Source of the DNA: Chryseobacterium sp. ON_d1
GTDB lineage: Bacteria; Bacteroidota; Bacteroidia; Flavobacteriales; Weeksellaceae
Direction of reading: 5' to 3'
Assembly: GCF_006829085.1 (NCBI RefSeq)
Contig: NZ_BJTC01000006.1
Coordinates: forward strand, 248,001-312,000
Length of the DNA stretch: 64,000 nucleotides
Numbering within the stretch: position 1 is the stretch's first letter; every line of letters begins with the position of its first letter. The translations under genes and the position numbers were made by a program. The notes beneath the pieces were generated by a model. The model ran no database searches, had not been told where the DNA came from, and worked only from the letters and a program-made list of their open reading frames with translations. Below, piece by piece: positions 48,893 through 48,974 of the stretch.

Positions 48893-48910
48893 TTTTATAC
48901 TATCATTTTT
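48893..48910. promoter_or_regulatory. Left operator half-site (probable HxlR site)
   Basis: TTTTATACTATCATTTTT is the exact reverse complement of 48957-48974. It lies directly upstream of the HxlR ATG and just downstream of that gene's TAACTTTG -7 box. Confidence 0.75.
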
Positions 48911-48921
48911 TACCGTTATTG

Positions 48922-48929
48922 CAAAGTTA
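48922..48929 (-). promoter_or_regulatory. -7 element of the HxlR gene
   Basis: TAACTTTG on the minus strand fits TAnnTTTG. The left operator starts about 12 nt downstream. Confidence 0.55.
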
Positions 48930-48941
48930 GGAAACTTAAAT

Positions 48942-48949
48942 TAATTTTG
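48942..48949 (+). promoter_or_regulatory. -7 element of the nitroreductase gene
   Basis: TAATTTTG fits TAnnTTTG. TTG at 48919-48921 lies 20 bp upstream. The right operator begins 7 nt after the box, about at the start of transcription. Confidence 0.55.
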
Positions 48950-48956
48950 TAACTAT

Positions 48957-48974
48957 AAAAATGATAGTATAAAA
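48957..48974. promoter_or_regulatory. Right operator half-site (probable HxlR site)
   Basis: AAAAATGATAGTATAAAA is the exact inverse of 48893-48910, with centres 64 bp apart. It lies immediately before the nitroreductase ATG at 48977. Confidence 0.75.

Follow-up and report, generated by a model that had tools for sequence, protein, structure and literature searches.

The start codons of the divergently oriented hxlR and nitroreductase genes of Chryseobacterium sp. ON_d1 lie 84 bp apart and enclose a conserved 70-bp element, in which each promoter is accompanied by a candidate operator. We conclude that the genes are probably controlled by an autoregulated, thiol-sensing HxlR repressor, which is dedicated to this locus and acts on both promoters. 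A sequence-only reading of the window, i.e. the whole stretch of 64,000 nucleotides that was analysed, had proposed an exact 18-bp inverted repeat as the operator pair, by which one repressor could close both promoters including its own. Anatomy and conservation of the region agree with such a pair, but do not support the 18-bp repeat as the operator.

Anatomy of the intergenic region

The divergent gene pair was borne out by Pfam matches of both proteins (Table 1). Against PF01638, the HxlR winged helix-turn-helix domain, the regulator scored 106.4 bits and thus exceeded the family cut-off of 20.8, while the curated NCBIfam cut-offs for RrpB (79.8 vs. 175 bits) and RrpA (72.4 vs. 185 bits) were missed. 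Its closest named relatives belong to Chryseobacterium, and the top matches among solved structures were YybR (HypR; 4a5m, E 2.1e-29) and HxlR (7bze/7bzd). All 60 distinct homologs share the N-terminal residue Cys11, and 40 of them have the adjoining Cys12, as does the window protein, whose residue 13 is a threonine. At one locus (L060; G188 C16 225089-225430), the match to the window HxlR contains one in-frame TAA and the regulator may be shortened there. The nitroreductase is matched by solved nitroreductases (best E 4.8e-24). With the NCBIfam entry NF008275, the oxygen-insensitive NAD(P)H nitroreductase, it gave an E of 1.4e-39 but 135.8 bits, which is below the cut-off of 227; judged by its sequence, the protein is a relative of this group outside the filed membership.

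Table 1. Features of the hxlR/nitroreductase locus (window positions)
Feature	Position	Strand	Remark
HxlR (MarR/DUF24) family regulator, 115 aa	48545..48892	minus	Pfam PF01638, E 7e-31
Left arm of the repeat (half-site, spacer and leader)	48893..48910	plus	exact 18-bp pair in 13/51
Candidate operator of hxlR, ACGGT-N8-ATAGT	48899..48916	minus	about +2 to +19 relative to the inferred start of hxlR
-33 element of the nitroreductase gene (inferred), TTG	48919..48921	plus	invariant in 51 distinct sequences
-7 box of hxlR, TAACTTTG	48922..48929	minus	TA and TTT kept in all 51 distinct sequences; TAnnTTTG type
Central position, ACTTA in the window	48934..48938	plus	midway between the inferred start sites
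-7 box of the nitroreductase gene, TAATTTTG	48942..48949	plus	column conservation
-33 element of hxlR (inferred), TTA; TTG in many relatives	48950..48952	minus	20 bp from the -7 box
Candidate operator of the nitroreductase gene, ACTAT-N7-ATAGT	48952..48968	plus	about -2 to +15 of the inferred start site
Right arm of the repeat	48957..48974	minus	
Nitroreductase, 199 aa	48977..49576	plus	Pfam PF00881, E 2e-17

The two arms of the repeat (TTTTATACTATCATTTTT and AAAAATGATAGTATAAAA) are exact reverse complements at 18 of 18 positions, 64 bp apart from start to start and separated by a gap of 46 bp. Within the 5.4-Mb genome, no exact copy of the 18-mer exists besides the two arms, and the next best matches have two mismatches. 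Chance counts in the window or in the own genome alone do not settle whether the repeat is real: with up to three mismatches the 18-mer is not enriched in the genome (104 matches vs. 115 for the reversed control), and the ten matches of a 10-mer with one mismatch in the window are not significant, as many being reached by 9 of 100 shuffles. The repeat was judged to be real because it is conserved. The pattern ACTATCAT-N25..55-ATGATAGT was detected in 62 of 173 genomes of the genus, each time as a 70-bp element of like kind; the reversed control yielded one match in each of four genomes, and two of the 62 genomes (G023 and G121) have one extra, unrelated match.

As an operator, the repeat did not hold up. 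Among the 51 distinct orthologous intergenic sequences, the exact pair recurs in 13, and 17 have its 10-bp core in both arms. The palindromes that are conserved are offset from it, so that the 18-bp repeat is best described as a local echo of two conserved palindromes. Each arm comprises one ATAGT half-site plus spacer and leader bases, while the second half-site of each operator is situated outside the arm (ACTAT, 48952-48956; ACCGT, 48912-48916). For this reason ATACTATCAT, which had been suggested for searching related genomes, is a poor search string.

The conserved palindromes lie beside hxlR and may be dimer sites of its product. On the nitroreductase side, ACTAT-N7-ATAGT is perfect in 47 of the 51 distinct sequences; the remaining four retain ATAGT and carry GCTAT (L096), ACAAT (L063), ACAGT (L059) or ACATT (L067) in place of ACTAT. 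On the hxlR side, ACTAT-N8-ACCGT (plus strand) was found in 49 sequences, and ATAGT or ACTGT replaces ACCGT in one each; if these two half-site variants are counted, the operator exists in 51 of 51. The two sites are thus unlike, the one being perfect with a spacer of 7 bp, the other having a spacer of 8 bp and, in 49 of 51 sequences, the deviant half-site ACGGT. One protein must therefore tolerate two geometries, a point against the single repressor proposed here.

Both -7 boxes named in the sequence-only reading are present, and the promoter layout TTG (or TTA)-N20-TAnnTTTG appears on both sides. In Flavobacterium psychrophilum, the TAnnTTTG box resides at -12 to -5 according to an excerpt of PMC9723704; by this position, transcription would start at about 48954 on the plus and 48917 on the minus strand. 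The -33 element of hxlR shares one base with the nitroreductase operator, and that of the nitroreductase gene lies 20 bp from its own -7 box and 2 bp from the hxlR operator. Operators that reside at the inferred start sites and touch or adjoin the opposite -33 elements present the layout of a repressor closing both promoters. At the central position, A and C are invariant in the 51 distinct sequences, and a full third ACTAT half-site exists there in 13 of 21 distinct elements from HxlRs of less than 75% identity.

In the own genome, a -7 box joined to the N7 operator without mismatch was found at this locus only. With up to two mismatches, the search for more targets gave 13 matches vs. 20 for the reversed control, and none is claimed.

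Conservation, spacing and distribution of the element

HxlR homologs were gathered regardless of their intergenic DNA, from 35 of 148 genomes of the family (E <=1e-33) and from 49 loci of a contig search. Loci with a divergent nitroreductase gene not more than 108 bp away were taken as orthologous; these 62 loci comprise 51 distinct intergenic sequences, which are 81 to 108 bp long. The loci L061, L062, L064-L066, L068 and L107-L117 are outside this set and were examined separately, the spacing scan included. The 70-bp element could be aligned without gaps in all 51 distinct sequences. These are related to one another, their effective number at 85% identity being 6.3, and counts among them cannot be taken as independent. 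In the 17 distinct loci whose HxlR has less than 80% identity, the operator half-sites and the promoter bases are 98% and 99% identical to the window, respectively. For the remaining bases of the element the identity is 66%, and at fourfold codon sites it is 28% in hxlR and 30% in the nitroreductase gene. This contrast with codon sites of the same genes does not depend on the non-independent counts. The sequence-only reading had made its proposal dependent on the repeat being kept in relatives with the same gene pair; at the 62 loci the operators are present, whereas the exact repeat is often missing.

The centres of the two operators are 52.5 bp apart, about five helical turns, in 47 of 47 distinct sequences. 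A scan of 85 HxlR loci for the spacing accepted distances of 20 to 150 bp from site to site and pair scores of at least 17 out of 20. The pair-bearing loci contain 57 distinct 70-mers, and some loci represent the same genome twice. In 75 of the 77 loci with an HxlR of at least 55% identity, some of which face other genes, the best pair was at 52.5 bp, while no pair reached a score of 17 in the eight loci below 55% identity. Of the two misses, L057 was an edge effect of the scan, since the operator touches the start codon and is visible in the alignment; L109 is real. A later set came from a phylum-wide search that gave matches in 22 of 296 genomes at E <=1e-33, of which 17 loci were examined. 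The spacing of 52.5 bp was met in 14 of these 17. Five (L166, L172, L173, L174 and L183) had previously been found via the element itself and L176 is the DNA of L109; hence eleven loci were new, and nine of them showed this spacing. Mononucleotide shuffles generated a pair of at least 17 in 19 of 1700 cases for the 85-locus scan and in 17 of 850 for the later set, none of the latter at 52.5 bp. No pair was seen in L109 (= L176; 63% identity) and L181 (56%), and L180 (58%) has a weak pair at 50.5 bp. In all of these, HxlR faces a different protein, by eye NAD(P)-binding, which suggests a sister group with another operator layout.

A fixed-length pattern of the element, allowing up to two mismatches, matched 32 of 296 genomes of the order and 4 of 90 genera (reversed control, 0); by its design this search says nothing about spacing. 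Other proteins facing the element include, among the four scanned, Flavodoxin_2 (L141, L143), an NmrA-like protein (L137) and one protein with no Pfam match (L142); further partners exist, for instance at L108 and L152. At several loci (L066, L107, L154, L166, L174, L175, L177 and L179) the element lies by the nitroreductase gene and the hxlR start is about 155-380 bp off; L066, L107 and L154 have an additional perfect N7 site closer to hxlR. L166 belongs to a Persicobacter megaplasmid, on which the element is located between hxlR and the nitroreductase gene. A second Persicobacter megaplasmid (L167, 1500-1569) carries the 70-bp element upstream of an ORF, by eye a radical-SAM protein; no hxlR or nitroreductase match was found within the 3-kb stretch around it, and the ORF is perhaps a target controlled in trans.

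An origin of the element from mobile DNA was considered and rejected. Of 24 records obtained in a plasmid search (E <=1), only two cover at least 80% of the query, both from Persicobacter, and a phage search gave one partial match. The latter, on the unannotated 636-kb record of an uncultured phage (LR756504.1, 622560-622604), takes in the element's right half and covers 51% of the query at 86.7% identity (E 4e-4).

Proposed mode of action and alternative explanations

Anatomy and constraint of the element, its fixed spacing and the invariant cysteine were observed directly; from here on we infer binding of HxlR to the candidate sites, repression by this binding, the inducer and a weaker affinity for the regulator's own operator. 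The intergenic region would act as a 70-bp double promoter with two operators for HxlR. Dimers of the reduced protein are predicted to occupy ACTAT-N7-ATAGT over the nitroreductase start site and, probably more weakly, ACGGT-N8-ATAGT over the hxlR start site. Each operator also reaches or borders the -33 element across from it, so that one bound dimer would hinder both promoters. An electrophile, be it a quinone, a nitroaromatic compound, or disulfide or hypochlorite stress, would modify Cys11 and cause the dimer to release the DNA, whereupon nitroreductase and regulator would be made, the compound reduced and repression restored. With a nitroreductase as the target, quinones, nitroaromatics or disulfide stress are the likely inducers. 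Cys11 is the residue by which relatives sense electrophiles, as described in excerpts of PMC7835342 and PMC6798810, and the window regulator is probably redox-sensing.

The fixed distance admits a further, tentative reading, which we consider possible but rather doubtful. The 70-bp element may be a portable Bacteroidota switch, whose operators, exactly five helical turns apart and with a third half-site midway in many relatives, would align HxlR dimers along the same side of the helix, where binding is cooperative and the two promoters are shut together. Regulator and double operator would then form a cassette that has come to serve different redox enzymes, and the deviant half-site in the hxlR operator would be kept as it sets the order of repression. 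The layout itself yields a sharp prediction, namely N7 and N8 sites at 52.5 bp that half a turn of extra DNA should uncouple. Interlocked promoters alone may fix the spacing, and cooperative binding is the bolder reading of it.

The main rival to repression is activation. A stress-modified HxlR might bind the nitroreductase promoter at about -55 to -38 and recruit RNA polymerase, a mode of action reported for B. subtilis HxlR and HypR. These two proteins, the top solved-structure matches of the window regulator, include activators: HxlR responds positively to formaldehyde (excerpt of PMC7835342), and PMC6943732 mentions an activation of HypR in one passage and lists it among repressors in another. 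By its coordinates, moreover, each operator is placed upstream of the promoter on the other side, as far from it as an activator site might be. However, each also covers the inferred start site of the nearer gene, where binding should block transcription, and it is the operator over the nitroreductase start site that is perfect. We regard activation as unlikely.

It is still less to be expected that a different regulator binds the sites, for example a paralogous HxlR, of which the own genome offers a choice (18 HxlR matches in all). Single related sites, each with 9 of 10 core bases, exist upstream of the paralogs at L132 (N7) and L126 (N8), but the element goes with the HxlR clade of the window through several genera and different partner genes. 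The site at L126 (1395-1413), AACTATC-N6-GATACT, is located just upstream of another hxlR-type gene, is near the N8 type and lacks a second operator; that at L132 is a single site of the N7 type, upstream of a further gene of this family. These were the best sites among the paralogs, together with a weak pair at L133 (score 16, at 36.5 bp). A genome-wide HxlR box was rejected as an explanation, since the 17 other HxlR matches (one a fragment) have neither a perfect N7 site nor a pair of at least 17.

The same TTG/TTA-N20-TAnnTTTG layout and A-rich leaders on both sides might also mean that only promoter bases are conserved and that the inverted repeat arises incidentally from the resemblance of two A/T-rich leaders; we deem this highly improbable, as half-sites outside the boxes are about as conserved as the promoter bases while leader and spacer bases change. 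An action of the repeat in RNA, through the three-codon reading frame ATGATAGTATAA just before the start codon in both window leaders, is most improbable, and the mini reading frame was rejected, because only 16 of 51 distinct sequences retain it in both leaders, whereas the half-sites stay.

Relation to known HxlR-type systems

The genes yodB and yodC are arranged divergently, and the QsrR operator has the sequence GTATA-N5-TATAC. YodB of B. subtilis with its nitroreductase YodC and QsrR of Staphylococcus aureus are MarR/DUF24 quinone sensors, whose N-terminal cysteine is conserved in the window HxlR. Here a divergent nitroreductase gene, which shares the double operator with hxlR, may be the target of the regulator. 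The Chryseobacterium locus differs from them in phylum and promoter type and in having two operators with different spacers at a fixed distance of 52.5 bp. Control of a nitroreductase by an HxlR-family regulator with a conserved N-terminal cysteine is described for the YodB/YodC type in an excerpt of PMC6798810. By analogy, the repressor favored here would represent a kind of switch that is already known, working like YodB with YodC.

HypR (YybR) of B. subtilis, which controls the oxidoreductase HypO, provided the best solved-structure match (4a5m); unlike the repressor proposed here, it is described in a passage of PMC6943732 as becoming active when thiols are modified. HxlR of B. subtilis belongs to the same Pfam family and has its sensing Cys11 at the identical residue number, but it is a positive regulator that answers formaldehyde via Cys11 and Lys13, the window protein having Thr13 (excerpt of PMC7835342 for B. 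subtilis HxlR, including its DNA complex 7bzg).

Judged by title or beginning of the abstract, none of the papers listed deals with an HxlR operator from Bacteroidota, most subscription papers lying outside the literature covered; the same applies to those listed for HxlR together with Chryseobacterium or Flavobacterium. Of interest are the fixed spacing of two operators and, in the operator of hxlR itself, the conserved odd half-site ACGGT. The analysis provides exact coordinates of candidate operators for a Chryseobacterium HxlR regulator, and the cassette could serve as an electrophile-inducible promoter in laboratory strains of Bacteroidota.
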